In this document: positions 6 through 25,977 of the stretch, one piece after another
Position numbering within the stretch: the stretch's first letter is position 1
How the letters are laid out: each line of letters opens with the position of its first letter
Assembly: GCA_040757115.1 (NCBI GenBank)
Contig: JBFLYA010000021.1
Coordinates: 1 to 30,236 of the forward strand
Direction of reading: 5' to 3'
DNA length: 30,236 nt
Origin: a bacterium
GTDB lineage: Bacteria; UBA9089; CG2-30-40-21; SBAY01
Notes under the pieces: generated by a model
What the model was told of the DNA's origin: nothing
Database searches by the model: none
Seen by the model: only the letters and a program-made list of their open reading frames with translations
Position numbers and translations under genes: made by a program

Positions 6-280
6 TAGCACTTATTAATCGAAATTTGACCCAGATATGGTTATGAAATTCCAAATCACAAATTCCAAATTCCAATTAGCAGATATGGTTATGAAATTCC
101 AAATCACAAATTCCAAATTCCAATTAGTGAATTAGTGAATTAAGCGAGTTAGCGAATTAGTAAAATCTAATCTCTAATTCACTAATCTCTAATTCGCTTT
201 TTGGTATGTGGAATTTGGTGCTTGGGATTTGGGATTTTTTACTTATCCACTCTGAGTAAAATTTTGATTAATAACTGCTA
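6..280. mobile_element. TA-flanked MITE, copy 1
   Basis: Non-coding element with 15-bp terminal inverted repeats: TAGCACTTATTAATC at 6-20 and GATTAATAACTGCTA at 266-280, one mismatch. It is flanked by TA on both sides (4-5 and 281-282), as expected for an IS630/Tc1-mariner type transposase acting in trans. A related copy lies inverted at 25748-25977. This copy is longer because a 48-bp internal unit is tandemly duplicated (32-79 and 80-127). The interior carries 7-bp units of the AAATTCC type (46-73 and 94-121). No transposase is encoded; family assignment is inference from ends and TA duplication. Confidence 0.8.
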
Positions 281-290
281 TAGTAGTTAG

Positions 291-476
291 TTATTGGTCA
301 CTTTTTAGTTTTTTCTCTAAGACAACCGGTAATTTTTCGAGTAAGTCAATTACCTGGTTTAGCGAATCAACTATCTGTTTTAATCGAGAAAAAAGGATAG
401 TTGATAAAGAAAAAGCCCAGATAAAAAATAGTGTCCAGATAGCTAAGATGATATAAAACATATATTGTTCTTCCAT
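291..476 (-). CDS. small single-pass membrane protein, unknown function
   Basis: Sixty-one residues. Residues about 5-28 form one hydrophobic segment (ILAIWTLFFIWAF), followed by a charged amphipathic helix with leucine/isoleucine spacing (LKQIVDSLNQVIDLLEKL). An AAGGAGG ribosome site lies about 8 bases upstream of the ATG at 476, which is the main reason to accept so short a gene. The shape is like small DUF948-type membrane proteins, but I do not recognise a family. The stop codon is close to the MITE that ends at 280. It is on the same strand as queC but 348 bases of repeat-rich DNA separate them. Confidence 0.6.
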   Translation of the reverse strand: MEEQYMFYIILAIWTLFFIWAFSLSTILFSRLKQIVDSLNQVIDLLEKLPVVLEKKLKSDQ

Positions 477-504
477 AATTCAATTCCTCCTTATTCTTTT
501 ATTC

Positions 505-594
505 CTTAGAATTCTGCAAAATTAGGAAACTGTAGTTTTTAAGCGGGTATTTAAAACCTCTATTTTTATCAATTTCCTCCAAAGAGCAAAATGC
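505..594. repeat. 90-bp dispersed repeat, left copy
   Basis: Reads, on the minus strand, as a near copy of 27774-27864: both run from TGCATTTTGCTCTTTGG through a segment ending TTTTGCAGAA(T/C)(T/C)CTAAG. A shorter piece (TTTTGCAGAACCCTA) also occurs at about 813-827, next to the queC stop. The copies are inverted relative to each other and 27 kb apart. No coding potential. Confidence 0.75.
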
Positions 595-602
595 ACAACT
601 CA

Positions 603-694
603 TTTATAGTTTATAGTGTATAGTTTATGGTTTATAGTTTATAGTCTATAGTCCTTCAACTATAAACTATCAACTATAAACTATCAACTATCTA
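603..694. repeat. inverted pair of 7-bp tandem arrays (TTTATAG)n / (CTATAAA)n
   Basis: Seven consecutive 7-bp units of TTTATAG type at 603-651 are followed after 8 bases by five units of CTATAAA/CTATCAA type at 660-694, the reverse complement of the first set. The two arms can fold into a long hairpin. A further three-unit array (TGATATT) lies at 767-787. The rest of 595-824 shows no gene. Confidence 0.8.
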
Positions 695-824
695 CTACAT
701 TTCAGCGTTAAAATACTTAAAGCAAAGATATTACCAATTTGAAATTTGATTTGTAATTTTGCATTTTGATATTTGATATTTGATATTTATTTGTTGTCTC
801 CCCCCAATCCTATTTTGCAGAACC

Positions 825-1490
825 CTATTTTATTCCTGCCTCCTTAAATCCTTTACTTCTTAAAACACAACTATCACACTTCCCACACGGTTTTTTCCCA
901 CCCTTGTAGCAAGACCAGGTGAGTTCAAAAGGCACCTTCAGTTTAATTCCCAGTTGGACAATTTCAGCCTTAGATTTGTCAATTAAAGGGGTAAGGATTT
1001 TTATCTTTGACCCCTCAACCCCTGTTTTAGTGGCTAATTGGGCTAAATTGTTAAATGTGCTATAATATTCAGGTCTGCAATCTGGATAGCCGCTATAATC
1101 TAAGGCATTCGCACCAATAAATATAGTTTTAACACCCATTGTCTCAGCATAGGATAAAGCAAAGGCAAGAAAGATAGTATTGCGTGCCGGGACATAGGTG
1201 GATGGGATTTCGGATTTCGGATTTCGGATTTCGAATTTCGAATTAGTCGGAATAGGTATTCTTTTATCAAGCAAGGAACTACCCAACCAGGGTAATTGGA
1301 ATTTAATGATTTGGTATTCACAGCCTGTAATCACGGCTATTTTCCTGGCACATTGGACTTCTTTGCGGTGTCTTTGCTGGTAGTCAAAGATAAGGCAATG
1401 ACACTTATATCCTTTATTTTTTGCCCAATAAAGTGTCGTAGTTGAATCCAATCCACCAGAAAGTAAAATAACTGCCTTTTTTGTCTGCAT
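825..1490 (-). CDS. queC: 7-cyano-7-deazaguanine (preQ0) synthase QueC
   Basis: QueC converts 7-carboxy-7-deazaguanine, ATP and ammonia to preQ0 in queuosine synthesis. The protein has 221 residues, normal for the family. The PP-loop ATP motif SGGLDST is at residues 11-17, the family block STYVPARNTIFLAFAL follows at about 97-112, and the zinc-binding cysteines are at the C-terminal end (CYKGGKKPCGKCDSC). Residues 83-95 (NSKFEIRNPKSEI) are unusual: they are encoded by a 7-bp tandem array at 1205-1246 and sit in the variable loop just before the STYVPARN block, so they look like a recent repeat-derived insertion. The gene is last in the minus-strand series after guaA, but a mobile element separates the two. 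No preQ1 riboswitch is evident. Confidence 0.95.
   Translation of the reverse strand: MQTKKAVILLSGGLDSTTTLYWAKNKGYKCHCLIFDYQQRHRKEVQCARKIAVITGCEYQIIKFQLPWLGSSLLDKRIPIPTNSKFEIRNPKSEIPSTYVPARNTIFLAFALSYAETMGVKTIFIGANALDYSGYPDCRPEYYSTFNNLAQLATKTGVEGSKIKILTPLIDKSKAEIVQLGIKLKVPFELTWSCYKGGKKPCGKCDSCVLRSKGFKEAGIK
1205..1246. repeat. 7-bp tandem array (GGATTTC)n inside queC
   Basis: Six units: four perfect GGATTTC (1205-1232), then GAATTTC and GAATTAG. Total 42 bases, a multiple of three, so the reading frame is kept. It encodes the extra loop NSKFEIRNPKSEI of QueC. Confidence 0.85.
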
Positions 1491-1504
1491 AATATTCCCA
1501 TTTC

Positions 1505-1777
1505 GTAAGCGTTTGGGTAATCCTTTACCGCAGAGACGCAGAGAAACAGAGAGGAAAATATCTTTTTTTCGTGTTTCTCGGGACGGTTCCTTTTATCGTT
1601 TTTCCTATGATTTTTGTTGGAAATTAGAAATTGGGCTTTTGTCTCTCTCCCTAATTTCCAATTTCTAATTTCAATCCGCAATCTTTCAAACAAAAGTGAA
1701 CCGTCCCGAAATTTCTGTCTCTGGTGAATAGATTTTAATTTTTTCTCTGCGTCTCTGCGTCTCTGCGGTGAATAGTT
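1505..1777. mobile_element. degraded GTAAC-type element with nested MITE
   Basis: Fills the whole gap between queC and guaA. The left end GTAAGCGTTTGGG (1505) and right end GGTGAATAGTTTT resemble the GTAAC-family ends seen elsewhere. Inside, ACCGCAGAGACGCAGAGAAA faces CTCTGCGTCTCTGCGGT. The right end touches the guaA stop codon. TGGGAATA-like sequence occurs on both sides, but four bases out of register, so a target duplication is not secure. A second element (1579-1708) is nested in the centre. Confidence 0.55.
1579..1708. mobile_element. nested MITE with CGGGACGGTTC ends
   Basis: Terminal inverted repeat CGGGACGGTTC (1579-1589) and GAACCGTCCCG (1698-1708). The interior contains a further inverted pair, GGAAATTAGAAATTGG near 1619 against CCAATTTCTAATTTC near 1658. 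GGGACGGTTC-type ends are common in REP-like elements of environmental bacteria; here no transposase is present. Confidence 0.65.
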
Positions 1778-3298
1778 TTATTCCCACTCAATCGTTCCTG
1801 GTGGTTTAGAGGTAATGTCATAGACAACGCGGTTTATGCCCTTAACCTCATTAACAATTTTAGTCGCAATTTTATTTAGCAGGGAATGAGGTAGTTGTGC
1901 CCAATCTGCGGTCATAGCATCTTGCGAGGTGACCGCACGAACTGCAATCACATCCTCATAAGTTCGTTCATCTCCCATCACGCCTACTGTCTTAACCGGT
2001 AAAAATACAGCAAAACATTGCCAGAGTTTGTGATATAAATTAGCCTTTTTTATCTCCTGCTCAATTATCCAATCTGCCTCACGAAGGATATTTAATCTTT
2101 CCATAGTTATTTCGCCAATGATTCGCACGGCTAATCCTGGTCCTGGAAATGGATGTTGCCAGACAATTTCATCTGGTAAGCCTAATTCTTTAGCCAGAAT
2201 TCGAACCTCATCCTTAAATAATTCTCTAAACGGCTCAATTAACTTCAGATGCATCTTTTCAGGCAGTCCACCAACATTATGATGTGTTTTAATCGTTGCC
2301 GAAGGACCTTTAGTTGAAACACTTTCAATTACATCTGGATAAAGAGTCCCCTGGGCTAAAAAATCCACATCACCTATTTTTTTTGCCTCTTCCTCAAATA
2401 CCTTGATAAATTCGTTTCCAATAATCTTGCGTTTTAATTCCGGGTTGGTGACATCTTTAAGTTTTGTTAGAAATCTTTCGCTCGCATCGCAATAATCTAA
2501 ATTGACATGGTAATAATCTCTAAAAGTCTTTATCACTCGTTGGGCTTCATATTTTCTTAGCAAACCATTATTGACAAATATGCAGGTCAATTGATTCCCA
2601 ATTGCCTTATGAAGCAGAACAGCCACGGTTGATGAATCTACACCACCACTTAAGGCACAGATAATCTTTTTATTTTCTACCTTTTCTTTTATTTCCTTTA
2701 TTTCATGGTCAATAAATGATTCCATTGTCCAGGTAGGTGCAAGCTGGCAAATTTTAAACAGGAAATTTTTGATTATTTGCATTCCATAGGTCGTATGAAC
2801 TACTTCCGGGTGAAATTGAAGTCCATAGATATTTCTCTCCTCGTTTGCTATGGCACAGGCAGGTGAATTAGCGGTTTCCCCAATCACCTTGAATCCTTCA
2901 GGTAGATGTTCTACTTTATCACCATGGCTCATCCAGACCTGTGAAGATGCAGGAAGTTCTGTAAAAAGAGCGGAAGAACTCATTATCTGTAATTTTGCTT
3001 TACCATACTCACGGCTTTTGGCACTTTTAACTTCACCTCCCAGACATTGCACTAACCATTGCATACCATAACAAATGCCTAAGACAGGTAGCCTTAACTG
3101 CAAAATTTTTGGCTTTCCAAGAGGTGCATCTTTATCATAAACGCTTGCCGGGCCCCCAGAAAGTATTATCCCTTTAAATTGCTTTAGTTCCTGTGCTGAA
3201 ATGTTATAAGGCAATATTTTACAATAAATATGTTCTTCTCGCACCCGGCGGGCGATAAGTTGTGTGTATTGTGAGCCAAAATCTAAAATTGCTATCAT
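1778..3298 (-). CDS. guaA: GMP synthase (glutamine-hydrolysing)
   Basis: Makes GMP from XMP, ATP and glutamine. The class I glutamine amidotransferase domain is at the N-terminus, with the nucleophile Cys76 in GICYGMQ and the His163/Glu165 pair in QFHPEV. The ATP pyrophosphatase domain follows, with SGGVDSS at residues 217-223, and then the dimerisation domain ending IEWE. At 506 residues it is full length, with all key residues present. It starts at ATG 3298, with AAGGA upstream. It probably belonged to one transcript with amiC and the GerMN gene, but a 237-bp mobile element has entered the spacer upstream and another abuts its stop codon. Confidence 0.97.
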
Positions 3299-3350
3299 TA
3301 TTAATTATTATATCCTTCCCACTTTCTCACTTTTCCTGATTCTGGTATTT

Positions 3351-3587
3351 GTAACCGTTCAGGCTATATATCAAAAGTGTAAGAAAGGGGATAAGGAGAT
3401 AAGAGTGATATGGAGATAAGATAATAGAAATAGATTGAAATTTATAGAAATAGGTAGAAATTGATTGTGGAAAACAACAAATTTCCATAAATTTCTATTA
3501 GTTTCTATTAATTTCAATTTTTTTAATAATATCTCCCTATCTCCTTAATCTCCACATCTCCTTTTGTTACACCACCTGAACGCTTAC
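3351..3587. mobile_element. GTAAC-type element E1 with 8-bp target duplication
   Basis: Ends are GTAACCGTTCAGG (3351-3363) and CCTGAACGCTTAC (3575-3587). TGGTATTT occurs on both sides (3343-3350 and 3588-3595); a ninth base (C) could also be shared. GTAA ends with 8-bp duplications fit the IS66 family (established rule for IS66; assignment is inference). The interior is made of concentric inverted repeats: GGAGATAAG against TATCTCC, and 10-bp units of GAAATAGATT type against TTTCTATTAA type. There is no ORF. The right end supplies the stop codon of the GerMN gene. Confidence 0.9.
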
Positions 3588-4147
3588 TGGTATTTTTTAT
3601 TTTTATGTTGATAAATAAGCGAGAGATTTTGTTTAAAGGGCATAGTGGTATCAATATGCCCGGCAATTGTTTCAACTTCCTTCCCCTCGACTAAAATTTG
3701 AACATATTTGATTTTGGGAAAGTTAATCGTAAGGGTATTAACGATAGAGAATATCGTCTGGATTTCACCACAACTCCCACCAGGGTGTTTTGTGGTTAAG
3801 TCGGCTGAAAAATCTACATAAGCCGTATCCTCATAGAGATAGACCGCTCGGACTTGCGTTTCTTCAGGTATGGTGGGAAATAAATCCTTTGATTCTGGTC
3901 CTTTTATGAGTTCATTGAGAACTTCTTTAGCCTGTAAAAGTGGGTCGGCTAATCTGGGTATTCGATGTTCTTCTAAAACAAGGGAGTTAGCGTCTTTAGA
4001 GGAAAAATATAATTTTACTTTTATCTCTTTAGGCTTGAAGAATGGGATTTGAAACTTAATATCCTCTCTTTGTGTAAAGAAAAATATTATCAATCCTAAT
4101 AAAATAAGGGGAATAATAATTAAAAAAGAAAGTTTTTTAATCTTCAT
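3584..4147 (-). CDS. membrane-anchored GerMN-domain protein
   Basis: 187 residues. An N-terminal hydrophobic anchor (residues about 7-25, FLIIIPLILLGLIIFFF) precedes a GerMN-type domain at about 40-170 (for example VYLYEDTAYVDFS and GEIQTIFSIVNTL). GerMN domains occur with cell-wall hydrolases; this gene follows amiC with a 4-base ATGA overlap, so a periplasmic cell-wall role is likely. The last codons CAG TAA come from the end of element E1. Removing the element and one TGGTATTT copy would restore reading through NQEK to a TGA, so the gene has lost four residues. Confidence 0.85.
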   Translation of the reverse strand: MKIKKLSFLIIIPLILLGLIIFFFTQREDIKFQIPFFKPKEIKVKLYFSSKDANSLVLEEHRIPRLADPLLQAKEVLNELIKGPESKDLFPTIPEETQVRAVYLYEDTAYVDFSADLTTKHPGGSCGEIQTIFSIVNTLTINFPKIKYVQILVEGKEVETIAGHIDTTMPFKQNLSLIYQHKNKKYQ

Positions 4148-5436: not shown

Positions 5437-5473
5437 TGATATTTTCCTCCCCTGTTAATTTTAACTGGTGATT

Positions 5474-5502
5474 ATTATATCATAATATTTGTTATTTGTC
5501 AA
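5474..5502 (-). promoter_or_regulatory. consensus sigma70-type promoter for amiC operon
   Basis: On the minus strand TTGACA (5497-5502), 17-bp spacer, TATAAT (5474-5479). The leader to the ATG at 5436 is about 30 bases and includes GGGGAGG. The rest of the gap to 5686 shows no gene. Confidence 0.85.
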
Positions 5503-5686
5503 ATTATTTCGATTGTAAAGTAGTAATTCTCATTATAGCAGAACTTGTGTAAAAAAGTGAAGAGGTGCAAGGGAGTTTATTTTCTACCTTGAACCTTGCT
5601 CCTTATTCCTTTGGCTAATCTTTAAAACTTGTGGGACAGGCTAAGTTAATATATCACAAAATTTACCAGTTTGGGACAAAATTTCG

Positions 5687-5715: not shown

Positions 5716-5717
5716 TA

Positions 5718-6572
5718 ATGATGGCAGAACGGGGTCAGAGGTCAGACCACAAAGGAAACCCTTTGTTCCACTCATCTTTACCCCTCAAAAACCGAATGAT
5801 GAATTCGCAAAAATTGCCAATAAATACTGGGACGAACTCCAAACTCAATTAACGGAGTTAGAAACGAAACTTGGGACATCTACCAGGATATATCATGAAT
5901 TGGTCTCTATAGGTGGTGAAGCTTATCGTTACCCACAAGTCGAAATATAGTTAATTGACAATTATCAATTAGACATTATCAATTCACAATTAATATTTGA
6001 TGTTGACAAAATTAACAAATAATGGTCAATTGTTAATTGTAAATTGTCAATTGTTAATTATTGGGGCTGCATATCTCTGTTATTTCGCAGTATTTCCCCT
6101 CAAAAATCTTCCCTCTCAAGATGTGGGTAACGATAAGGTGGTGAAGAGGGGGTTAAAGTCATTGAAGAATTGAGTAAGGGAAGCTGTCAAATTGTCAAGT
6201 CCAGGTGAGACAAAGGAGCCCCACTTGAGCTGATCGAAGATAGAGAATTATTATCTGAGTTTATGGATTGGAGTAAATGTCTGATGGTGGAATTGGAGAA
6301 GGTATTTGATAAGGTTTATGCATTCTATACAGATGCCCAGCAAAAGAGGAATAAGTATATTGAGAAACAGATAGACGAGACATTAGGAGAAAATGAAGCG
6401 GGGATATTATTAATGTAAGAACATCATCAGGTGCAATTCCCACAAGGGGTACAGGTATTTTATGTTACCCCAGCTTCATTAGACGAATTAGACGCTGGAT
6501 TAGAACACATGTCTATGAAATTTAAAAAGAGAACACGAATGATACGAATTACACAGTACATAGCATTGGAGT
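5718..6572 (+). pseudogene. broken gene of unknown family, interrupted by a MITE
   Basis: Removing the element at 5922-6137 and one copy of GTGGTGAAG restores one frame from about 5750 to the TAA at 6572. It reads FVPLIFTPQKPNDEF, then HELVSIGGEEGVKVIEEL, SEFMDWSKCLMVELEK, YTDAQQKRNKYIEKQIDETL, VQFPQGVQVFYVTPASL and ends IALE. Two further in-frame stops remain: TGA after QIVKS-R (about 6208) and TAA after GILLM (about 6417). At the N-terminus, the promoter position favours ATG 5721, which is in another frame; a one-base shift near 5750 is therefore likely. I do not recognise the family. It looks like a soluble helical protein of about 210 residues. Confidence 0.7.
5922..6137. mobile_element. 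216-bp MITE with 16-bp perfect ends and 9-bp duplication
   Basis: Perfect inverted ends CTTATCGTTACCCACA (5922-5937) and TGTGGGTAACGATAAG (6122-6137). GTGGTGAAG is duplicated at 5913-5921 and 6138-6146. The insertion splits an ORF, which proves its mobility. The centre is an inverted pair of 7-bp arrays: AATTGAC/AATTATC units at 5953-5994 and CAATTGT/TAATTGT units at 6027-6061. No ORF inside. Confidence 0.9.
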
Positions 6573-6639: not shown

Positions 6640-6924
6640 ATGAGTCTTGATAAAACTATTTGGAAGGAAGCTATTAGTCAATATAAAGCCTGGAATGAAG
6701 CCAAATTTACTGAACAGGTGTTGTCTGCTGGCAAAAAAACATTGTCTGATAAATGGCGAGAATATGAAGAGTTAATGTCTCTATGCTGGAAACTTAAACC
6801 AAACCCAGGATTAACCCAGCAACAGCGTGCTATGGAAGAATGGGAAACTTATTATGCCTTTATCCGTCGATTCGAGGAAAAAAGAAAAAGATATGGAAAG
6901 GCAACTTCTACCAGTATTACATAA
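6640..6924 (+). CDS. small protein upstream of nucleotidyltransferase, possible antitoxin
   Basis: 94 residues, mostly helical and charged (IWKEAISQYKAWNEAKF; YAFIRRFEEKRKRYG), with no family I recognise. Its 3' end overlaps the likely start of the nucleotidyltransferase by 32 bases, so the two are translationally linked. By position it could be the partner or antitoxin of that protein, but the sequence alone does not show this. The ribosome site is weak (AAAGG about 10 bases upstream). Confidence 0.6.
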   Translation: MSLDKTIWKEAISQYKAWNEAKFTEQVLSAGKKTLSDKWREYEELMSLCWKLKPNPGLTQQQRAMEEWETYYAFIRRFEEKRKRYGKATSTSIT

Positions 6925-7468
6925 AGCTATCACTTTGTTAGAAGAATACGGTTACCGTTATGCTGTGATTGGAGGTCTTGCTGTTTCTAAATGGGGGTGG
7001 ACCAGAGCTACTTATGATGTGGATATTAAGGTCTTAGTGACGGATACTGATTATTCATCTGTTCGTGCGATCATTCGTTCTGCTTTTTCAGAACGTGCCC
7101 GTCCACATATTCTGGAAAATCCATTGATTGTGGATACGAAAATAGATGAAGTTATTGTTGATTTTTTGCTGGCAGTACCAGGTTATGAGGAAAATATTAT
7201 CACTCGTGCCATATCTTGCGACATAAATGAGTTAAAGGTTTGGATTTGTTCACCAGAAGATTTGATTATTCAAAAAGCTGTCGCCAGCCGACCACAAGAT
7301 TGGCAAGATATTGAAGGAATACTCACCGAACAATATGAACATCTCAATATGGATTACATAAATGATTGGCTTAAGGAATTTGCAGAGGTTTTAGAACGGC
7401 CAGAGATGTTGAATCAATATCAACATATACAGGAAGTTATATTAAATGTAAGGGGAGAGAAGGAATAA
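6893..7468 (+). CDS. nucleotidyltransferase, AbiEii / DUF6036-like
   Basis: 191 residues from ATG 6893; an upstream ATG at 6827 is in frame but lies inside the preceding gene. The fold signature is AVIGGLAVSKWG followed by the acidic metal-binding pair in TYDVDIKV, then VIVDFLLAVPG and the SPEDLIIQKAVA block typical of AbiEii-like and DUF6036 nucleotidyltransferases. Known relatives act as toxins that modify tRNA or as phage-defence proteins. With the small overlapping gene upstream this is a plausible toxin-antitoxin unit. It lies between a dead gene and a repeat element, which suggests accessory DNA. Confidence 0.8.
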   Translation: MERQLLPVLHKAITLLEEYGYRYAVIGGLAVSKWGWTRATYDVDIKVLVTDTDYSSVRAIIRSAFSERARPHILENPLIVDTKIDEVIVDFLLAVPGYEENIITRAISCDINELKVWICSPEDLIIQKAVASRPQDWQDIEGILTEQYEHLNMDYINDWLKEFAEVLERPEMLNQYQHIQEVILNVRGEKE

Positions 7469-7499: not shown

Positions 7500-7759
7500 G
7501 TAACTATTCAGCCACTGATTAACACGGATTAGCACGGATAAATACAGAGGGCAGAAGGCAGAGGGCAGAGGGCAGAGAGCAGAGGGTAGAAGGCAGAGAG
7601 CAGAGAGCAGAGGACAACAGGAGGAAAAACCTTCAGCCTGATTACGGACGCGATTCACGAATCCTCAGTGTTTCATCTATGTCCATCTGTGGCTGAATAG
7701 TTACCAATAAATTTTAATTTTTTTTCTCTGCGTCTCTGTGTTCTGCGGTGAACAGTTAC
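7500..7759. mobile_element. GTAAC-type composite element E2
   Basis: The inner element runs from GTAACTATTCAGCCAC (7500) to GTGGCTGAATAGTTAC (7704). It is followed by CAATAAATTTTAATTTT and CTCTGCGTCTCTG, to an outer end GGTGAACAGTTAC (7759). The same order occurs at 22682-22882 and 25678-27766. The 8-bp flanks differ (AGTATTTT and AAAAAGGA), so this copy may be a recombinant. It contains nine 7-bp GCAGAGR units (7551-7613). It ends 14 bases before the carB start. Confidence 0.8.
7551..7613 (+). repeat. 7-bp tandem array (GCAGAGR)9
   Basis: Nine consecutive 7-bp units, all purines apart from one C or T: GCAGAAG, GCAGAGG, GCAGAGG, GCAGAGA and so on. Lies inside element E2. Confidence 0.9.
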
Positions 7760-7773: not shown

Positions 7774-10700
7774 ATGCCAAAACGAACAGACATACATAAG
7801 ATATTAATTATTGGTTCAGGACCGATTATCATTTCACAAGCCTGTGAATTTGACTACTCCGGGACACAGGCCTGTAAGGCTTTAAAAGAGGAAGGTTACA
7901 AGGTCATTCTGGTCAATTCAAATCCTGCGACCATTATGACTGACCCGCAAATGGCTGACCAAACCTACATTGAGCCTATTACGCCGGAGGTTGTGGGTAA
8001 AATCATAGAGATTGAACGACCTGATGCCATTTTACCAACACTTGGTGGTCAGACAGGACTTAATGTCGCGGTTAAGGTATGCGAGATGGGAATCCTTAAA
8101 AAATTCAAGGTAGAGATGATTGGAGCGAATTACCAGGCGATTAAAAAGGCTGAAGATAGAAGTCAATTCAAACAGGCGATGTTAAAAATTGGTCTTGCGG
8201 TGCCCAGAAGTGGGTTAGCCTACAATCTGGATGAGGCTAAAAACATCGCCCAGGAAATTGGTTTCCCGATAATTATCCGACCAAGCTTTACCTTAGGTGG
8301 GACAGGTGGAGGAATTGCCTACAATATTGAAGAGTTTGAAAAAATAGCCTCAACCGGTCTGGAGGCAAGTATGATTTCAGAGATATTGATTGAAGAATCT
8401 GTTCTTGGCTGGAAGGAATATGAGTTAGAGGTGATGCGTGACATCAAAGATAATGTGGTGATTATCTGTTCTATCGAGAATTTTGACCCAATGGGTGTTC
8501 ATACAGGTGATTCAATCACAGTTGCCCCGGCTCAAACTCTCTCAGATAAAGAATATCAACTGATGCGGGATGCGGCTATTGCTATCATCCGTGAAATTGG
8601 CGTAGAGACTGGTGGGTCAAATATTCAATTTGCAGTGAATCCTGATAATGGTAAAATGATGGTGATTGAAATAAATCCCCGTGTTTCAAGGAGTTCTGCA
8701 TTAGCCTCAAAAGCCACCGGCTTTCCTATTGCTAAGATGGCGGCTAAATTAGCCGTTGGCTATACCTTAGATGAAATCCCAAATGACATTACCAAAAAAA
8801 CACCAGCCTCTTTTGAACCGACTATTGACTATTGCGTGGTCAAAATCCCAAGATTTACCTTTGAAAAATTCCCGCAGGCAGAGGATGTTTTAACCACTTC
8901 GATGAAATCTGTTGGTGAGGCAATGGCTATCGGACGGACATTTAAAGAGGCACTTCAAAAAGGACTGCGGTCTCTGGAAATAGGTAAATTTGGTCTTGGT
9001 GCTGATGGCAAAGATAAACCTCAAGATTTAGCAGAAATTAAGAAAAACCTCATTGTCCCGAATTCAAAAAGGCTATTTTACATTAGATATGCCCTGCAAC
9101 ACAGGATGACTGTAGATGAAATCTATGAATTGAGTAAGATAGATAAATGGTTTTTGGAAAATATCAAGCAGATTGTAGAGATGGAGGGAGAGATTCAAAA
9201 TTCAAAATTCAAAATTCAAAACATTAAAAAAGCAAAGCAATATGGCTTTTCGGATAAACAGTTAGCACATCTTTTAGATTCAGATGAGGAATCTATTCGG
9301 CAGATACGAATGAAAAATGATATAAAAGCTACATTCAAATTAGTTGATACCTGTGCGGCTGAATTTGAGGCTTATACACCCTATTATTACTCTACCTACG
9401 AAACCGAAAATGAAATCCGTCTATCTACCAGAGAAAAGGTGATGATACTTGGTGGTGGTCCCAATCGCATTGGACAGGGAATTGAGTTTGATTATTGTTG
9501 TTGTCAGGCCTCCTTTGCCTTAAAAGAAGAAGGTTATGAAAGTATTATGGTCAATTGTAATCCTGAAACCGTCTCAACCGACTACGATACATCAGATAAA
9601 CTTTACTTTGAGCCAATGACGATTGAGGATATTTTAAATATCGTTGAAATGGAAAAACCAAAAGGCGTCATCATTCAACTGGGTGGACAGACACCATTAA
9701 ATTTAGCCATTCCATTAGAAAAAGCCGGGGTAAAGATTTTAGGGACTTCAACGGATGCGGTTGACCGTGCAGAAGACCGGGGTAGATTCAAGATGCTTCT
9801 TGAAAAATTGAATCTTAAACAAACACCAAATGGCATTGCCTTTTCACCAGAAGTGGCAAAAAAAATCGCCCAGGAGATAGGTTATCCGGTGCTTGTTCGT
9901 CCTTCTTATGTGCTGGGTGGTCGAGCAATGGAGATTGTCTATGATGAGGCAGAACTAAAAAAATACATCCAGTCTGCGGCTGAAATTTCACCTGAACATC
10001 CAATTTTAGTTGATAAATTCCTTGAAGATGCCATTGAGGTTGATGTCGATGCTATCGCAGATGGAGAAACAGTGGTTATTGCGGGGATTATGGAACACAT
10101 TGAGCATGCAGGCATACACTCAGGGGATTCTGCCTGTGTCCTTCCACCTCATACCCTGCCAAAACCAATTATTGCTGAACTTAAAAAACAAACCTATGCC
10201 CTGGCAAAAGAACTTGAAATAATCGGATTGATTAACATTCAATATGCTATTCGAGAAGGTGAAATATATGTTTTAGAGGTTAATCCAAGGGCATCCCGAA
10301 CAATACCTTTTGTCTCAAAGGCGATAGGTGTCTCTTTAGCTAATTTGGCAACTAAAGTTATAGTTGGAAAAACACTTAAAGAACTTGGATTCACTCAAGA
10401 AGTCCTACCAAAACATGTGACAGTTAAAGAAGTGGTCTTCCCATTTGTTCGATTTCCTGGCACAGATACCATTTTGGGTCCAGAGATGAAATCCACTGGT
10501 GAAGTAATGGGCATTGACACAGATTTTGGCCTGGCATTTGCCAAATCGCAAATAGCCGCAAATCAACTCTTGCCTCAAAAAGGAAATGTCTTTGTCTCGG
10601 TCAAGGATAAGGATAAACCAGTAATCCTGCCTGCGATTAAGAAGCTGGTAGAGTTAGGATTTAACTTAATTGCAACTGAAGGGACACATAACTTCTTTAT

Positions 10701-11798: not shown

Positions 11799-11980
11799 TG
11801 TCGTGTTGAACAAATAACGCACGGAATTTGATTCTGGTAACTGGTGATTGGTAACTGGTAATTAAATACCGTTCGGCTGATCTCAGGACGAAACTATTTA
11901 ACCAATTACCAGTTACCAATTATCCGTTTGCAGGTTATGAAATCTGATGATACCCCGTGCAAAACTTACTCAACACGACA
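11799..11980. mobile_element. MITE with TGTCGTGTTGA ends and 4-bp duplication
   Basis: Perfect 11-bp ends TGTCGTGTTGA (11799-11809) and TCAACACGACA (11970-11980). CTAT flanks both sides (11795-11798 and 11981-11984). Inside, 7-bp units GGTAACT/GGTGATT (11836-11863) face their reverse complement AACCAAT/TACCAGT (11900-11920). The duplicated CTAT touches the ribosome site GAGGTG of the first MotB gene. No ORF of its own. Confidence 0.85.
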
Positions 11981-14721: not shown

Positions 14722-15630
14722 ATGACAATATTAGAGTGGATTAACTCAGTTCAGGGAGTAATTACTATTCTCGGAAGTATTCTCGGAGGAATAATTACTC
14801 TAATAGGAACCATTATTGGTGGTATATTATGGTTACAAAGAAAGTTTGCGGCAATTGATGCAAGGTTCGAGGCAATTGATGCAAGATTTGCGGCAATTGA
14901 TGCAAGGTTCGAGGCAGTTGATGCAAGATTTGAAATAATTGAAAGAAAACTTGCGACAATTGATGCAAGATTAGCGGCAATTGATGAAAGGTTTGCGACA
15001 ATTGATGCAAGATTAGCGGCAATTGATGAAAGGTTTGCGACAATTGATGCAAGATTAGCGGCAATTGATGAAAGGTTTGCGACAATTGATGCAAGATTAG
15101 CGGCAATTGATGAAAGGTTTGCGACAATTGATGCAAGATTAGCGAAAGTTGATGCAAGGTTTGCAACAACTGATGAAAAATTTGAGAAGTTAGTTAACGC
15201 AATGAGGATAATGGCTGAAAATATAAGTGAGAATACGAGAGTTCTAAAAATGGTGGATGAAAATATAATTACAGTCCTGGCTCGGGCACATCTTATTTTA
15301 CCGGAGGAACAAATTACACTTTATAAAAGTTTTAGTGATAGTCATATAAATACATTTGAAAATACAGTAAAATGGCTAACAGGAAAAGCTAATCCTTTCA
15401 GCAAAGAAGAAGTTGCAAGATTAGTAAAATATAAAGATATGGCTACGGGGGGAAAAATATTTTCGCTTGAAGAAGCCAAAGATTTCCATGAACTCGCTCA
15501 TAAGCTGGACCGTGAACCAGGTGCCCCAGGCGAAGGGGTGGGATTTTTATTAGCCTTAACGGCTTATATCTTTGGAGTAAGTCTGGGCATTGAAGATGAT
15601 AAAAAAAAGGAGGTGAGGGATAAAAATTGA
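14722..15630 (+). CDS. membrane-anchored coiled-coil protein with 14-residue repeats
   Basis: 302 residues from ATG 14722, 5 bases after GGAGG; ATG 14719 is too close to the ribosome site. An N-terminal membrane helix lies at about residues 8-36 (VITILGSILGGIITLIGTI). It is followed by a heptad coiled coil (about 45-155) whose centre is the 14-residue unit RLAAIDERFATIDA. A folded C-terminal part (about 165-295) ends with FLLALTAYIFGVSLGI, perhaps a second membrane contact. The 42-bp repeat is identical in four copies. I do not recognise a function. It overlaps the rpsF start by four bases (TTGA). Confidence 0.8.
   Translation: MTILEWINSVQGVITILGSILGGIITLIGTIIGGILWLQRKFAAIDARFEAIDARFAAIDARFEAVDARFEIIERKLATIDARLAAIDERFATIDARLAAIDERFATIDARLAAIDERFATIDARLAAIDERFATIDARLAKVDARFATTDEKFEKLVNAMRIMAENISENTRVLKMVDENIITVLARAHLILPEEQITLYKSFSDSHINTFENTVKWLTGKANPFSKEEVARLVKYKDMATGGKIFSLEEAKDFHELAHKLDREPGAPGEGVGFLLALTAYIFGVSLGIEDDKKKEVRDKN
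14953..15144 (+). repeat. 42-bp coding tandem repeat, 4.6 copies
   Basis: Four identical 42-bp copies at 14953-14994, 14995-15036, 15037-15078 and 15079-15120, then 24 bases of a fifth. Perfect identity means recent expansion or active homogenisation; copy number may vary between strains. The flanking coiled coil shows older diverged copies. Confidence 0.95.
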
Positions 15631-16693: not shown

Positions 16694-17042
16694 ATCACAA
16701 GCATCGTACCTGTTTAGCGTGGTCAGAGAACACAAATGAATGGTAGTGACTTAGTGCGAACCCACTTCAAACACAATAAGTTGTGTAATACAAAATCAAA
16801 AATTAAATATTAAAATGCAAAATGACATATCAAATATCAAAAATCTTGACTTCGTGTTTAATTTAGTGTCTGACAAGTATTTGTGCATTTTGCTTTGTCC
16901 TTTTGCTTTGGACATTTTGATATGCGCATTAAATTCCTTGTGGAATATTTCGCACCGGTATCCTATTGTTTAACAAAGAGTTAAGTCTCAAATCAACGCA
17001 ATTTGGAACACGCTAAACACCTACAAGCATCTTGCTTGTGAT
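16694..17042. mobile_element. MITE-like element between rpsR and rplI
   Basis: The left end ATCACAAGCA...CTGTTTAGCGTG (16694-16721) is matched by inverted CACGCTAAACA...TGCTTGTGAT (17010-17042). The interior has ATGCAAAATGACATATCAAA against TTTTGATATGCGCATT. No ORF. It breaks the usual rpsF-ssb-rpsR-rplI cluster. A hairpin CAATCT-GGA-AGATTG lies just outside, at about 17056-17070. No clear target duplication seen. Confidence 0.6.
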
Positions 17043-17146
17043 TATTTTATTTCTCAATCTGGAAGATTGAACTACCTGTTACTACTCTCCGTGCTAATCA
17101 AATTATCAGTGACAGAATAATAGTTAACCAATTACCATTTAACCAA

Positions 17147-17209
17147 TTACCAGTTACCAATTACCAATTACCAGTTACCAATTACCAGTTACCAGTTACC
17201 AATTACCAG
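17147..17209 (+). repeat. 7-bp tandem array (TTACCAR)9
   Basis: Nine perfect 7-bp units TTACCAG or TTACCAA in the order G A A G A G G A G, with degenerate units before them from about 17122. Ends 17 bases before the rplI start. It matches the GGTAACT units at 11836-11863. Confidence 0.92.
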
Positions 17210-17682: not shown

Positions 17683-17737
17683 TAAGGTTTCACGAAATTG
17701 GTGATTGACACCGACATCCGAAATAGAAAAAAAGCCA

Positions 17738-17915
17738 CCTGTGCGATTAGACTAATTCATCGCAGAGACACAAAGGAAAAATAAATGTAAAATGTAAAAT
17801 AGGAAATGAAAAATGGGAAATTTTACTACTTCGCAAGACTCATTACCTTTCAGTTACACATTTTCATTTTACATTTCTCATTTTACATTATCCATTTTAC
17901 ATTTAACCGCACAGG
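17738..17915. mobile_element. MITE-like element between rplI and dnaB
   Basis: Ends ACCTGTGCGATTA (from 17737) and TAACCGCACAGGT (to about 17916), one mismatch. The centre has 7-bp units AAATGTA (17783-17803) facing six units of CATTTTA/CATTTCT/CATTATC (17865-17906), their reverse complement. No ORF. It ends just upstream of the dnaB ribosome site. Confidence 0.7.
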
Positions 17916-17939
17916 TTGAAAAAAAGGGAGGGGATACAA

Positions 17940-20815: not shown

Positions 20816-20821
20816 AGATAA

Positions 20822-21778: not shown

Positions 21779-22674
21779 AAAAGATAATCTTTGGGCAACG
21801 GCTCATTTTCGCTCTTTTTTCCGTGATTCCTCTGGTAACACTAATAAATACTTCTGTGGCAAATGCCTATGTGCAAATCTCAGATTTTTGTGGAAACTAT
21901 AATATTAATATTAATGGATTAAAAGGAACTTTGCAATTAATCCTGTGCTTGGAGGAAAAGGATTACAATCTTCAAGGCACATATACTAATGATAGTGAAC
22001 AAATCTTTCAAGTCAAAGGGTTCACAGGACATCTTAATCAGAGTATTCCATTGCATAAAATTACTTTCTATATTGATTTTCCACAAAATAGGCAAATGTT
22101 TGAAGGATATTTAATGTGTGAGAGCAGGGATGCTATTGCTGGATATACGATTGAGAAGAAAGTCCCTGTAGGATTCTATGCAATTAAAATGCCAAAATAT
22201 CAAATGCCAGAAGAAAAACAGCAGAAAAAATCATTTCTGCAAAAACCAATAAAAGATAAACTTTCAGACTTAAAATATATCTTAAAGGATATACGATATG
22301 CAATCCTAATCTATAATGGTCAACATCATCGTCAGGCTAAATTAGGATTTATATGGGATGAAAGGACACAAAAGCAAATTGCATATACTGATGGTAAAGA
22401 TGTAATGACACAACTACTCCAACGCACCGATAAAAATGGCTTAACTAATACTACTGAGGCACAATTTGGCCCATATTTCCATGAGTTTCGCATAAATCCA
22501 TTTACTTTAGGAAACACGATTCACATCGTTGATTCACCTCTACCAATTAAAGAAATCATTACCTCAGCTGAAAACTATGATTGGATTTTTAATGTCCGCA
22601 CTTCTGAATTTAGAGCAGGCGGAGAGGTAGTTTTACCTGATGATATTTCCGAACACTCTTTACAGGATTTTTAA
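21775..22674 (+). CDS. secreted protein of Mla operon with pseudopilin-like C-terminal domain
   Basis: 299 residues. It has a signal peptide (FALFSVIPLVTLINTSVANA). Residues 33-140 look beta-rich and unassigned. From about residue 165 the pattern LKDIRYAILIYNGQHH...TDKNGLTN...FGPYFHEFRINPF...YDWIFNVRTSEFRAG follows the globular part of type II secretion pseudopilins (aligned by eye), but without the N-terminal pilin helix. By overlap with mlaD it is co-expressed with the lipid transporter and probably periplasmic; no known Mla component matches it. It ends 7 bases before element E4. Confidence 0.7.
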   Translation: MKKIIFGQRLIFALFSVIPLVTLINTSVANAYVQISDFCGNYNININGLKGTLQLILCLEEKDYNLQGTYTNDSEQIFQVKGFTGHLNQSIPLHKITFYIDFPQNRQMFEGYLMCESRDAIAGYTIEKKVPVGFYAIKMPKYQMPEEKQQKKSFLQKPIKDKLSDLKYILKDIRYAILIYNGQHHRQAKLGFIWDERTQKQIAYTDGKDVMTQLLQRTDKNGLTNTTEAQFGPYFHEFRINPFTLGNTIHIVDSPLPIKEIITSAENYDWIFNVRTSEFRAGGEVVLPDDISEHSLQDF

Positions 22675-22681
22675 AAATGGG

Positions 22682-22882
22682 GTAATTGTTCACCGCCCAG
22701 ACGCAGAGAAACAGAGAAGACATAGAAATAAAGTAACTATTCAGCCACTGATTAACACGGATTAGCACGGATAAAAAAATAAAATCAGTGTTTCATCTGT
22801 GTCCATCTGTGGCTGAATAGTTACCAATAGATTTTAATTTTTTCTCTGCGTCTCTGCGGTAAAAGATTACCTGAACGGTTAC
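22682..22882. mobile_element. GTAAC-type element E4 with 8-bp target duplication
   Basis: Ends GTAATTGTTCACC (22682) and CCTGAACGGTTAC (to 22882). AAAATGGG is duplicated at 22674-22681 and 22883-22890. The right copy contains the ATG of the DUF4416 gene, so the insertion separated that start codon from its original upstream sequence. A second element (GTAACTATTCAGCC to GGCTGAATAGTTAC, 22733-22824) is nested inside. Confidence 0.92.
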
Positions 22883-22885
22883 AAA

Positions 22886-23413
22886 ATGGGTGAGATTAAA
22901 TTACCAAAGCCAGTAAAATTAATCGTGGGAATGATTTCCGGGGATAATAAATTATTTGAATTGGCACAACAAAAATTAATGGAACGGTTTGGTGAAGTTG
23001 ATTTTTTTAGTCAGATTTTACCATTTGACTCTACAAATTATTATTGTCAGGAAATGGGAATAAGTCTAAAGAGGAAATTTATTAGTTTTGCCATCTTAAT
23101 TGACCCCGGTCAACTTCCAGACATTAAAATTTTTACTAATTTAACTGAAAAAGAATTTAGTTTTGATTCAAAACGAAGGATTAATCTTGACCCCGGCTAC
23201 ATTTCCCTGTCAAAACTGGTGTTAGCGACAACTAAAGATTATCAACATCGTATTTACCTGCGTGATGGGATTTATGGTGAGGTAACATTACGATTCAAAT
23301 CAAAAGGATTTCAAAACTGGGAATGGACATATCCGGATTATAGAACTGAGACTTACCAAAGGATATTTTTGGAGATACGGAAATTGTATGTTGAACAATT
23401 GAAAAGTAGGTAA
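22886..23413 (+). CDS. DUF4416 family protein
   Basis: 175 residues matching the DUF4416 pattern: N-terminal KPVKLIVGMISGD, then FFSQILPFDSTNYYCQEMG, INLDPGYISLSKLVLATTKDYQHRIYL and WTYPDYRTETY. The function is unknown; some relatives are called GTP-binding, but no P-loop is seen here. Both ends were set by mobile elements: the ATG lies in the target duplication of E4, with no ribosome site visible (an AGGA lies before E4 instead), and the stop TAA is the second to fourth base of E5. Without E5 the gene would end SS-TAG rather than SR-TAA. Confidence 0.88.
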   Translation: MGEIKLPKPVKLIVGMISGDNKLFELAQQKLMERFGEVDFFSQILPFDSTNYYCQEMGISLKRKFISFAILIDPGQLPDIKIFTNLTEKEFSFDSKRRINLDPGYISLSKLVLATTKDYQHRIYLRDGIYGEVTLRFKSKGFQNWEWTYPDYRTETYQRIFLEIRKLYVEQLKSR

Positions 23414-23567
23414 CCGTTCAGGTAGTCTGGTATCTGGGTGTCTAAGTGTCTGGGTTACATAGACTACCAGACACATAGACACCCTTTACGCAAAATTGTA
23501 GGATTTGTTACTATCCTGATTTCCTGGATGTTAACTGATTGCTGATACCTGATGGCTGAACGCTTAC
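23410..23567. mobile_element. GTAAC-type element E5 with 8-bp target duplication
   Basis: Ends GTAACCGTTCAGG (23410) and GGCTGAACGCTTAC (to 23567). AAAAGTAG is duplicated at 23402-23409 and 23568-23575. The interior (GGTGTCTAAGTGTCTGG against CCAGACACATAGACACC) is unrelated to that of E1 or E4. No ORF. Confidence 0.92.
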
Positions 23568-23613
23568 AAAAGTAGTTAGCGATGAGGAATATTCCTTTCA
23601 GGAGATATGGAAA

Positions 23614-24672
23614 ATGTTATATGGTATCATCTTAGCCGGTGGGTATGGTGAACGATTTTGGCCAAAAAGTCAACCTGATACCCCAAAACAATTATTATCA
23701 ATTACCAGTAAAAAAACATTATTAGAAGAAACACTGGATAGAATCGCAGATTTAATTCCTCGCGAGAGAATATTAATTGTAACAAATAGGACTATCGGAG
23801 ATAAAATTTTATCGGCAACCCCTGCCCTGACGATGAATAACATTATCGCAGAACCAATGCGTAAAAATACTGCTCCAGCAATTGCATTAGCCACTTTATA
23901 TCTAAAAAATAAAGATAAAGAGGCGGTGATGGCGGTCTTACCCGCAGACCATTTTATTCCGGATAAAGAAAGATTCTTAAAAATTCTGTCCATTGCTTAT
24001 GAAGTGGCTAAAGAGAAAAAAGACCTTGTAACCTTTGGAATTAAACCAACAAGACCTGAAACCGGATACGGCTATATAGAAGTGGGAAAAAAAGTAGCCA
24101 CACAAAATGGCATCTCGACTTATGAGGTCATCTCATTTAGAGAAAAACCTGACCTAAATACAGCAAAAGAATTCCTTGCAAAAGGAAATTACCTGTGGAA
24201 CAGTGGAATGTTTATCTGGCATATCCAAACAATCCTTGATGCCTTTTCTAACCTTATGCCAGACTTATACTCAAAATTAATGAAAGTTGAAAATGACCTG
24301 AAAGTAGAAGAATTTTATCAAGGGGTAGAAAATATCTCCATAGATTTTGGAATAATGGAAAAGGCTAAAAATATCTTGATGATTGAAGGAGATTTTATCT
24401 GGGACGATGTGGGTTCCTGGAGGGCATTAGAAAGGATATATTCTCAAGATGAGAATAAAAATGTAATTTTAGGCAATCACATCGGAATTGATACTCAAAA
24501 TTGTATTGTTATGGCTGAGGAAAAATTAGTCGCTACAATTGGAATCTCTGATTTAATTGTAGTCAGCACAAAAGAAGCAACCTTTATCTGTCCAAAACAA
24601 AGGGCAGAAGAAGTAAAAAAAATAGTCGAGAAATTAAAAAATGGAGGTAAATTATGTCAGAAAGATGTTTAA
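23614..24672 (+). CDS. manC: mannose-1-phosphate guanylyltransferase
   Basis: Makes GDP-mannose from mannose-1-phosphate and GTP. 352 residues, the single-domain form without the isomerase part. The nucleotide-binding loop GGYGERFWPKS is at about 9-19, followed by AEPMRKNTAPAIAL, VLPADHFI, TGYGYIE, FREKPD, WNSGMFIW and WDDVGSW. AGGAG lies 9 bases before the ATG. It overlaps gmd by 19 bases. Confidence 0.94.
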   Translation: MLYGIILAGGYGERFWPKSQPDTPKQLLSITSKKTLLEETLDRIADLIPRERILIVTNRTIGDKILSATPALTMNNIIAEPMRKNTAPAIALATLYLKNKDKEAVMAVLPADHFIPDKERFLKILSIAYEVAKEKKDLVTFGIKPTRPETGYGYIEVGKKVATQNGISTYEVISFREKPDLNTAKEFLAKGNYLWNSGMFIWHIQTILDAFSNLMPDLYSKLMKVENDLKVEEFYQGVENISIDFGIMEKAKNILMIEGDFIWDDVGSWRALERIYSQDENKNVILGNHIGIDTQNCIVMAEEKLVATIGISDLIVVSTKEATFICPKQRAEEVKKIVEKLKNGGKLCQKDV

Positions 24673-25622
24673 TTACGGGTATCACAGGATTTGCAGGGAG
24701 TTATTTAGCTGATTTCTTGCTTGAAAAAGGAAATGTCGAAATTTATGGGATTAAAAGATGGCGTAGTCGAATGGAAACCATTGAGCATATTAAAGATAAA
24801 ATAACACTAATCGAATGTGATTTAAGAGATGCAACATCAGTTCTCAATTGTATTGAAGAAATGCAACCTGATAAAATCTTCCATTTAGCCGCTCAAAGTT
24901 TTGTTCCTACTTCATGGCTGGCACCTACTGAAACCTTAATGACTAATATCTTAAGCACTTTAAATATATTTGAGGCGGTGCGTAAAGCTCATTTAACTCA
25001 TACAAGAATTCAAATTGCCGGCTCTTCTGAAGAATATGGAATGGTTTATGAGGATGAAGTCCCTATCAAAGAAACTAATCCTCTAAGACCTTTAAGCCCT
25101 TATGGTGTCAGTAAAGTAGCTCATGATTTATTAGGATACCAATATTATATGAGTTATAATCTCTATATTGTAAGAACAAGGGGATTTAATCATAGTGGTC
25201 CTCGAAGAGGTGAGGTATTTGTAGAAGCAGATTTTGCTAAACAAATTGCTGAGATAGAGAAGGGATTAAAAGAACCAATTATATATGTAGGAAATCTTGA
25301 GGCAAAAAGAGATTTTACGGATGTGCGGGATATGGCTAAGGGATATTGGTTATCACTTGAGAAATGTGACCCCGGCGATGTCTATAATATCTGCTCTGGA
25401 AAGGCGTATGGCATAGAAGAGGTTTTAGATATGTTACTTTCTCTTTCTACGGTAAAAGTGGAAGTAAAACAAGATCCCTCGCGAATGCGTCCTTCTGATG
25501 TTCCGATATTATTAGGAGATTTCACTAAATTTAGAGAAAAGACCGGTTGGCAACCAACTATCCCTTTTGAAAAAACACTTAAAGATATATTAAACTACTG
25601 GCGTGAATATTATCAGGTTTAG
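24654..25622 (+). CDS. gmd: GDP-mannose 4,6-dehydratase (SDR family)
   Basis: 322 residues. The NAD(P) loop is GITGFAGSYL (about 7-16), with HLAAQSFVPTSW, the catalytic SSEEYG and YGVSK with Tyr/Lys, RGFNHSGPRRGE, and RDFTDVRDMAKGYW near the C-terminus. Coupled to manC it directs mannose to deoxyhexoses (such as rhamnose or fucose types) for surface polysaccharide. It could instead be the related 4-keto-6-deoxy reductase; SSEEYG and the GDP-sugar context favour the dehydratase. Confidence 0.85.
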   Translation: MSERCLITGITGFAGSYLADFLLEKGNVEIYGIKRWRSRMETIEHIKDKITLIECDLRDATSVLNCIEEMQPDKIFHLAAQSFVPTSWLAPTETLMTNILSTLNIFEAVRKAHLTHTRIQIAGSSEEYGMVYEDEVPIKETNPLRPLSPYGVSKVAHDLLGYQYYMSYNLYIVRTRGFNHSGPRRGEVFVEADFAKQIAEIEKGLKEPIIYVGNLEAKRDFTDVRDMAKGYWLSLEKCDPGDVYNICSGKAYGIEEVLDMLLSLSTVKVEVKQDPSRMRPSDVPILLGDFTKFREKTGWQPTIPFEKTLKDILNYWREYYQV

Positions 25623-25747
25623 TAATAAAATATTAACGGCTCCAGCATAAAAGAAGTTTTTGCGAAACAAAAAAGGAGTAACCGTTCAGGTAGTCTTTTA
25701 CCGCAGAGACGCAGAGAAACAGAGAAGACATAGAAATAAAGTAACTA

Positions 25748-25977
25748 TAGCAGTTATTAGTCAAAACTTTACTCAGAGTGAATAAGTAAAAAAATCCCAA
25801 ATCCCAAGCACCAAATCTCAAATAAGCACCAAATTCCACATACCAAAAAGCGAATTAGAGATTAGTGAATTAGAGATTAGATTTTACTAATTCGCTTAAT
25901 TCACTAAATGGAATTTGGAATTTGTGATTTGGAATTTCATAGCCATATCTATGTCAAATTTCGATTAATAAGTGCTA
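25748..25977. mobile_element. TA-flanked MITE, copy 2 (inverted)
   Basis: Ends TAGCAGTTATTAGTC (25748-25762) and GATTAATAAGTGCTA (25963-25977), with TA at 25746-25747 and 25978-25979. Removing the MITE and one TA rejoins GTAAC-TA-TTCAGCCACTG, the sequence of the intact element elsewhere, so the empty site is known exactly. It carries 7-bp GGAATTT units (25910-25937). Confidence 0.92.

Follow-up and report, generated by a model that had tools for sequence, protein, structure and literature searches.

Tandem arrays with a shared 7-bp period and many unrelated units, some of them inside MITE-like elements, in a bacterial genome

In most genomes, heptamers outnumber every other class of long simple repeats (Mrazek, Guo and Shah 2007 PNAS, as summarised in PMC4679880; also PMC4692102). 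The same 2007 study, according to PMC4679880, put forward slippage together with a 7-nt DNA polymerase contact, and our literature search yielded neither a test of the contact proposal nor a tested cause of the heptamer bias. The TAACTGA repeats of Beggiatoaceae (PMC4679880), and the GGGAATC repeats of Xanthomonas and GGGGA(C/T)T repeats of Nostoc (PMC4692102), are intergenic heptamer arrays of varying copy number, as are many of those reported here; these accounts describe one dominant unit per genome, whereas we found many. Cyanobacterial STRR repeats consist of a few fixed heptamer units, unlike the many units of the present genome. The stretch of DNA analysed here (the window, 30,236 nt) carries arrays that belong, with the others of its genome, to the heptanucleotide long simple sequence repeats: they have 7-nt units, they are over-long for the genome, and heptamers are the commonest class.

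Stretches of the window's own genome, including the window, were sampled to a total of 816 kb (19% of the genome) and screened at each lag from 2 to 40 for places matching at 19 or more of 21 positions. There were 108 such places at lag 7, and its multiples followed with 79 at lag 14, 49 at 21, 30 at 28 and 18 at 35, against at most 6 at each remaining lag and none at any lag in an order-4 Markov control screened in the same way. The commonest period that is not a multiple of 7 was 8, with 6 islands, and period 7 stood more than tenfold above every other period from 2 to 13. The sample yielded 31 consensus units. It was non-random, consisting of long contigs, and eleven of these were placed with earlier matches in view, mostly TTACCAR arrays, so that the TTACCAR count is inflated; selection by period entered only via this heptamer. 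The first-pass annotation had claimed a period of 7 shared by arrays of unrelated units, to be abandoned if repeat periods in the genome were flat or varied. The lag-7 count, set against the other lags and the Markov control, goes against a flat or varied spectrum, and the shared period is borne out both across the sample and in relatives. In an Rfam search the sole match was tRNA.

Period 7 with different units was also found in G001, a member of the same genus, in five other genomes (G002, G003, G006, G008 and G014), and in 4/40 genomes from elsewhere in the domain. Related genomes keep the period and have largely different units, and units turn over within family and phylum. A scan for the TTACCAR unit placed it, among the matches listed, in at least Cyanobacteria, Chloroflexi, Poribacteria, WOR-3, Bacteroidia, Verrucomicrobia, Gammaproteobacteria and CPR, this spread being a lower bound from loci ascertained by one heptamer. 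These public scan loci, most of them from cyanobacteria, contain some 70 further heptamer units and almost no other period, which does not support the earlier view that cyanobacteria differ from the present genome in having few fixed units. Sharing of units between phyla beyond TTACCAR is weak: 6 units were common to the window's genome and the scan loci, the searched unit aside, vs. 3.0 expected (p ~0.05). At scan loci in other phyla neighbouring units resembled each other more than after shuffling (0.919 vs. 0.857; 0/1000 shuffles) and similarity fell with distance. The same test gave the opposite outcome in the window's genome, where neighbouring units were no more alike than shuffled and an alternation of two units was seen.

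Every array listed for the window by the first-pass annotation was found in place with period 7, three of them (5953-5994, 17783-17803 and 17865-17906) in degenerate form with 66-78% matches at that period. Additional period-7 stretches lie at 166-193, 200-237, 16787-16845 and 25792-25823. The same kinds of element also contain period 8 (at 1529, 1744, 3385, 7725, 11001, 22704 and 25704), period 10 (3424-3515, 7513, 22746 and 29517) and periods 15, 20 and 48. Several arrays had been described as facing their inverse in the centre of a mobile element; the central position in such an element holds for 603-694, 7551-7613, 11836-11920, 17783-17906, 46-121 and 25910-25937, whereas 1205-1246 and 9193-9220 lie in genes and not in mobile elements. 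The first of these genic arrays, GGATTTC (GAAATCC; 1202-1245, minus strand), is inside a queC-like gene and yields the peptide NSKFEIRNPKSEI; 686 bp around it align to G001 at equal length. The second, ATTCAAA (9190-9223, plus strand), specifies 13 residues in carB and is identical in G001. A TTACCAR array (17127-17209, plus strand) is intergenic and does not fold; its orthologue in G001 has a net 27 bp less. A degenerate AATTGAC array facing CAATTGT (5953-6061) lies in an 804-bp stretch absent from G001.

The MITE-like element at 4-282 (TIR TATAGCACTTATTA/TATAGCAGTTATTA) has a related copy at 25746-25979 and no exact flanking duplication beyond its TA ends; its AAATTCC arrays (46-75 and 94-123, span 46-123) derive from a single array that a 48-bp tandem duplication (32-127) has made into two. 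An element of about 321 bp at 507-827 (TIR TAG(A/G)(A/G)TTCTGCAAAAT) is flanked by 10-bp direct repeats, TTTTATTCCT, and corresponds to a clean empty site in G001. It carries a TTTATAG array facing its inverse CTATAAA/TCAACTA (603-697), with a predicted single-strand DNA hairpin of -18.9 kcal/mol (z -7.6), and an ATTTGAT/TGATATT array (737-788). Within the element at 11799-11980 (TIR TGTCGTGTTGA, 4-bp flanking duplication CTAT), which is absent from that place in G001, where another element lies nearby, a GGTAACT array faces TACCAGT (11835-11922; predicted hairpin -20.1 kcal/mol, z -6.9). The element at 17737-17916 (TIR ACCTGTGCG(G/A)TTA; 16 elements in the samples) is likewise absent from the same place in G001 and contains an AAATGTA array facing CATTTTA (17783-17906), where copies differ by 7, 14 or 20 bp. 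Three arrays, AAATCCC (25792-25823), ATTAGAG (25854-25881) and GGAATTT (25909-25937), lie in the TATAGC-type element at 25746-25979, which is nested in an IS66-type MITE. A GCAGAGR array (7545-7613, plus strand) is inside the IS66-type MITE at 7500-7704 (TIR GTAACTATTCAGCC); other copies differ here by 7, 13 and 14 bp, and the orthologous site in G001 bears this MITE too, but lacks the array. Across the samples of the window's genome and G001, 23/198 arrays are inside five recognised MITE families, and 133/198 are intergenic and outside them.

IS66-type TIR pairs beginning GTAA numbered 132, of which 45 had an exact 8-bp flanking duplication and 77 had none, many of the latter nested or degraded. 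The elements at 3351-3587, 7500-7704 and 23410-23567 are, as a group, IS66-type MITEs with GTAA TIRs and 8-bp duplications, the duplication being present at the first and third and absent at 7500-7704. The genome has five DDE_Tnp_IS66 matches, the best one with two stops.

Array length differences between MITE copies are mostly whole heptamers. Among full-length copies of the TGTCG MITE, the family of the element at 11799-11980, the sole differences are of 7 or 14 bp and lie in the array; in the period-8 stretches of other MITEs, copies differ by 8 bp; length change therefore follows the local period. Copy number thus varies by whole units, as seen from MITE copies and one orthologous change of +7, slippage itself not having been observed. 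The window's genome and G001 are about 96-98% identical where aligned and have many polymorphic arrays, but few orthologous array changes were seen, one of +7 and one of net 27 bp, which is not a multiple of 7. Indels outside arrays, in 68.6 kb of alignment, were 5 of 4 bp, 3 of 5 bp, 6 of 6 bp and 2 of 7 bp, with no excess at 7 that would indicate a general 7-bp indel ruler.

In the non-coding DNA of the window's genome, two-copy duplications of 6 bp were about as frequent as chance would give (77 vs. 59 expected), and those of 7 bp (119 vs. 14.5), 8 bp (47 vs. 3.8) and 9 bp (18 vs. 0.5) exceeded expectation, with 2 at 10 bp; the lag-7 count is inflated by interruptions of longer arrays. Such a pattern would follow from a requirement of slippage for roughly 7 bp of re-pairing. 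Arrays of three or more copies numbered 22 at 7 bp and 3 at 8 bp, and no other size between 5 and 13 bp gave more than 1. It had been argued that slippage alone would give varied periods, and the excess of 8- and 9-bp duplications agrees with this in part, but those duplications rarely grow.

On balance we favour, with somewhat better than even confidence, the explanation that the arrays are heptanucleotide long simple sequence repeats produced by local slippage under a 7-bp re-pairing minimum and copied by MITEs. What is observed is an almost complete restriction to period 7 and its multiples, with many unrelated units, in intergenic DNA and inside several unrelated MITE families. Local slippage or misalignment would create short tandem duplications; units of at least about 7 bp could re-pair and prime further slippage where shorter ones cannot, and longer units would arise or grow less often, so that 7 would be strongly favoured. 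MITE transposition would then copy some arrays around the genome, and inverse-facing pairs may be favoured where MITE interiors or palindromes permit fold-back. No dedicated enzyme, template or selected function would be needed, and the account may explain why the lower edge falls at 7 and the preference in growth with it. Against this account, a minimum pairing length predicts a smoother fall above 7 than the one observed: two-copy duplications of 8 bp are present but seldom grow (47 to 3, compared with 119 to 22 at 7 bp). The lack of likeness between neighbouring units in the window's genome, the net 27-bp orthologous change, and the presence of the bias in some lineages and not others also count against it. 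We give limited weight to the possibility that, in several bacterial lineages, a host mechanism indifferent to sequence acts as a true ruler of 7 bp (e.g. through a contact of exactly 7 nt made by a polymerase or in repair) and expands only period-7 duplications.

The other explanations are less probable. A view of the arrays as sequence families that move or spread horizontally in their own right, comparable to the STRR repeats of cyanobacteria or to TAACTGA repeats, would agree with the recurrence of TTACCAR across several phyla among the matches listed, with a 71-bp TTACCA stretch present in G001 and absent from the window's genome at one gene boundary, and with the copying of arrays within the genome by MITE families. 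Other units are nevertheless hardly common to this genome and the scan loci, units turn over within lineages, and mobility accounts for the spread of units, not for all of them being 7 long; we consider it unlikely. Inverse partners were found within 250 bp of 33% of arrays in the window's genome, 49% in G001 and 22% at scan loci, about tenfold over the control (~3%). Together with the strong folding of several pairs and the Geobacter metallireducens precedent of paired sites on opposite strands (PMC2700814), this could reflect selection on hairpin geometry, which had been suggested for the window, or a protein-binding array of regulatory sites that holds the period at 7. Most arrays are without a partner, however, which speaks against selection for hairpins; no folding is seen for the array at 17127-17209, and partner spacing is wide (0 to >200 bp). 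Units vary from genome to genome and inside each genome, so that no single binding protein could recognise them all, and selection of either kind is quite unlikely.

A dedicated polymerase or reverse transcriptase adding 7-base steps, telomerase-like from a short template, would account for the sharp restriction to 7 and its multiples. The search for reverse transcriptases that the first-pass annotation had proposed did find two in the window's genome, but one is an RT-PrimPol fusion and the other the defence RT AbiP2, and no RVT_1 match was found in the array-rich drafts G008 (96% complete) and G034 (94%). A fixed template would fix the unit, yet there are 31 in one fifth of the genome, and unit similarity decays with distance in other phyla. 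The arrays thus show neither a unit set by one template nor a reverse transcriptase in every array-rich genome; many units per genome and array-rich genomes lacking the enzyme both argue against a templated enzyme, which we regard as very unlikely. Least probable of all is the seeding of the repeats by a transposon that duplicates 7 bp of its target and leaves them as a footprint on excision (raised in PMC4679880). This would supply a sequence-independent 7-bp ruler, but the elements here have flanking duplications of 8 bp (45/132 IS66-type pairs), 4 bp and 10 bp, the longest flanking duplication was 7 bp in only 3/132 IS66-type pairs, and none of the elements examined was recognised as having 7-bp target duplications.

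The genus of the window's genome and G001 is a natural setting in which to measure repeat growth against unit size, and MITE copies provide many replicate arrays within one genome. If the bias stems from replication or repair enzymes, a physical ruler could be read from genome sequence. For annotation, arrays without stop codons give spurious reading frames and in-frame inserts, as in queC and carB.

Eukaryotic foldback elements have long inverted repeats built of short tandem repeats, with units longer than here, and the likeness is one of architecture only. The paired heptanucleotide sites of Geobacter metallireducens are closer, being tandem, paired on opposite strands at variable distance, both intergenic and intragenic, and present in many copies, but they comprise few unit families and are read as regulator-binding sites (PMC2700814), in contrast to the variety of units described here. 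The BrickBuilt MITE of Porphyromonas gingivalis (PMC4596501) also carries a tandem array inside a MITE with multiple intergenic copies, but its unit is 23 nt and it is one MITE family, whereas here inverse-facing 7-nt units occur in several unrelated families. Compared with the heptanucleotide repeats of Mrazek and colleagues the arrays are of the same class, distinguished by the more than tenfold predominance of period 7, the frequency of inverse-facing pairs and the carriage of some arrays by MITEs. The heptamer bias is thus known, having been documented from 2007 onwards in many bacteria, and the window's genome exemplifies it very strongly, with MITE-borne inverse-facing array pairs as an added variant.

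We sampled 816 kb of the 4.32-Mb genome to which the window belongs (G000), the window included, and counted islands in which 19 or more of 21 positions matched at a given lag, for lags 2 to 40. Lag 7 yielded 108 islands and its multiples 79 (lag 14), 49 (lag 21), 30 (lag 28) and 18 (lag 35), against at most six at each remaining lag; an order-4 Markov control sequence yielded none. The 108 islands represent 31 consensus units. The suggestion of the first-pass annotation that the period is fixed, and the units are not, was thus borne out across the sampled genome. Because some stretches were picked for TTACCAR arrays and contig C77 carries a higher-order repeat, counts of the TTACCAR and C77 repeat units are inflated; the first 427 kb, sampled mostly blind, gave the same period picture.

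In the window, every noted 7-base array was verified by Tandem Repeats Finder and direct sequence inspection, and the units are unrelated as described, but one pair is a single array copied by a 48-bp duplication and several arrays are degenerate. Arrays of periods 8, 10, 15 and 20 are also present. Two arrays are intragenic, in a queC-like gene and in carB, the latter identical in G000 and its sister genome G001. Upstream of carB lie a gene for a nucleotidyltransferase-like protein (DUF6036/DUF2204; 6827-7468) and an adjoining 94-aa ORF with no family matches. At 14845-15184, in-frame 21/42-bp repeats in a predicted coiled-coil protein differ between the two genomes by 21-bp units.

The 68.6-kb alignment of G000 and G001 contained 86 indels. 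Among those outside arrays, lengths of 4, 5, 6 and 7 bp were about equally frequent, and therefore nothing there points to a 7-bp ruler acting generally. Changes within or beside arrays were +7 bp (L010), a net 27 bp (array 17127-17209) and 15 bp (L045); a 71-bp TTACCA stretch occurs in G001 only. Heptamer arrays follow one another in tandem, cassette-like, at L014 15723-16230 and L044 13340-16200, those of L014 set apart by repeats that contain an imperfect palindrome (GTGAGCCTTGGCTCATG ... CCTGAAAAT), and a 492-bp stretch of L014 is missing in G001. What lies between flanking ACTACTG arrays is a short spacer in G000 (L014 13382-13552) and about 960 bp of unlike sequence in G001 (L052 7279-8241).

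MITE-like elements are dense in the window. The element at 507-827 has 10-bp flanking repeats and a clean empty site in G001; that at 11799-11980, with CTAT duplications, is absent at the G001 spot, where another element lies nearby, and that at 17737-17916 is absent from G001. The insertion at 7500-7704 is common to G001, where the array is missing. In the G000 and G001 samples, the terminal inverted repeat GTAA(C/G)N(A/G)TTCA formed 132 close inverted pairs, of which 45 are flanked by an exact 8-bp duplication. IS66 elements have GTAA ends and 8-bp target duplications, which these pairs fit; G000 holds IS66 transposase remnants, the best match containing stops. An IS110-family transposase gene occupies 26584-27654. 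Full-length TGTCG copies differ in length by 7 or 14 bp only, always within the array, ACCTG copies by 7, 14 and once 20 bp, and period-8 stretches in other families by 8 bp. Only 23 of 198 arrays in both samples lie inside five recognised MITE families, at 0.70 per kb versus 0.43 per kb in the remaining non-coding DNA. MITEs spread arrays by copying and do not account for their origin.

Other sources were considered. Target duplications of 7 bp were not found in quantity among the elements surveyed in the G000 and G001 samples. The first-pass annotation had proposed an enzyme copying in 7-base steps, for which reverse transcriptase or unusual polymerase genes were the check, or selection on hairpin geometry. 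Two array-rich draft genomes had no reverse transcriptase, and G000 has one RT-PrimPol fusion and one AbiP2-type enzyme, which argues against a copying enzyme of the reverse-transcriptase kind. Inverse partners of arrays are about tenfold enriched, yet most arrays have none, and one of the longest in the window does not fold; hairpin selection is weakened accordingly. The fusion (L236, contig C42, ORF 659-2986) joins a reverse transcriptase via TPR repeats to an archaeo-eukaryotic primase and matches the PADLOC CRISPR-associated RT and PrimPol adaptation models and Pfam AEP-TOTE; the AbiP2-type enzyme (L237, contig C231) is a defence reverse transcriptase.

Two-copy duplications in non-coding G000 barely exceeded expectation at 6 bp (77 vs 59) and rose far above it at 7 bp (119 vs 14.5), 8 bp (47 vs 3.8) and 9 bp (18 vs 0.5). 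Arrays of at least three copies numbered 22 at 7 bp, three at 8 bp and at most one at each other size from 5 to 13. These counts look like a re-pairing threshold of about 7 bp, beyond which 7 would be additionally favoured as arrays grow. The threshold agrees with the proposal of Mrazek et al. 2007, as summarised in PMC4679880, that DNA polymerase contacts a stretch of 7 nt; alone, it is insufficient for the growth preference. Adjacent units in G000 were no more alike than when shuffled, and alternation of two units was observed.

Lag-7 islands also occurred in the sister genome G001, in G002 and G003 of the same family, and in the more distant G006, G008 and G014, with mostly unlike units (AAAATCC, AATAGTG, ACCTGAT, AAAAATT, AGCATCG, AAGACTG, AAGTGGG); G004 and several other thinly sampled genomes gave none. 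Forty genomes elsewhere in the domain (592 kb) yielded seven, spread over four genomes, and at most three islands at other lags up to 13. We also searched for three TTACCAR units and counted lags in the sequence surrounding the matches, in pieces no longer than 8 kb. The matches listed included Cyanobacteria, Chloroflexi, Poribacteria, WOR-3, Bacteroidia, Verrucomicrobia, Gammaproteobacteria and CPR bacteria; the pieces around them held 296 lag-7 islands, and lag 7 remained far above other lags with the searched unit left out. At these loci in other phyla, adjacent units resembled each other more than they did after shuffling, which is what local slippage would give.

Sequence alone does not decide what causes the 7-base preference. 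Cyanobacteria had been set apart as having a few fixed units; about 70 units occur at the loci of the listed matches, and cyanobacteria are therefore not restricted to few. The arrays of G000 are a genuine, unusually strong instance of the known heptamer bias, and the MITE-borne arrays facing their inverse are a variant of it.
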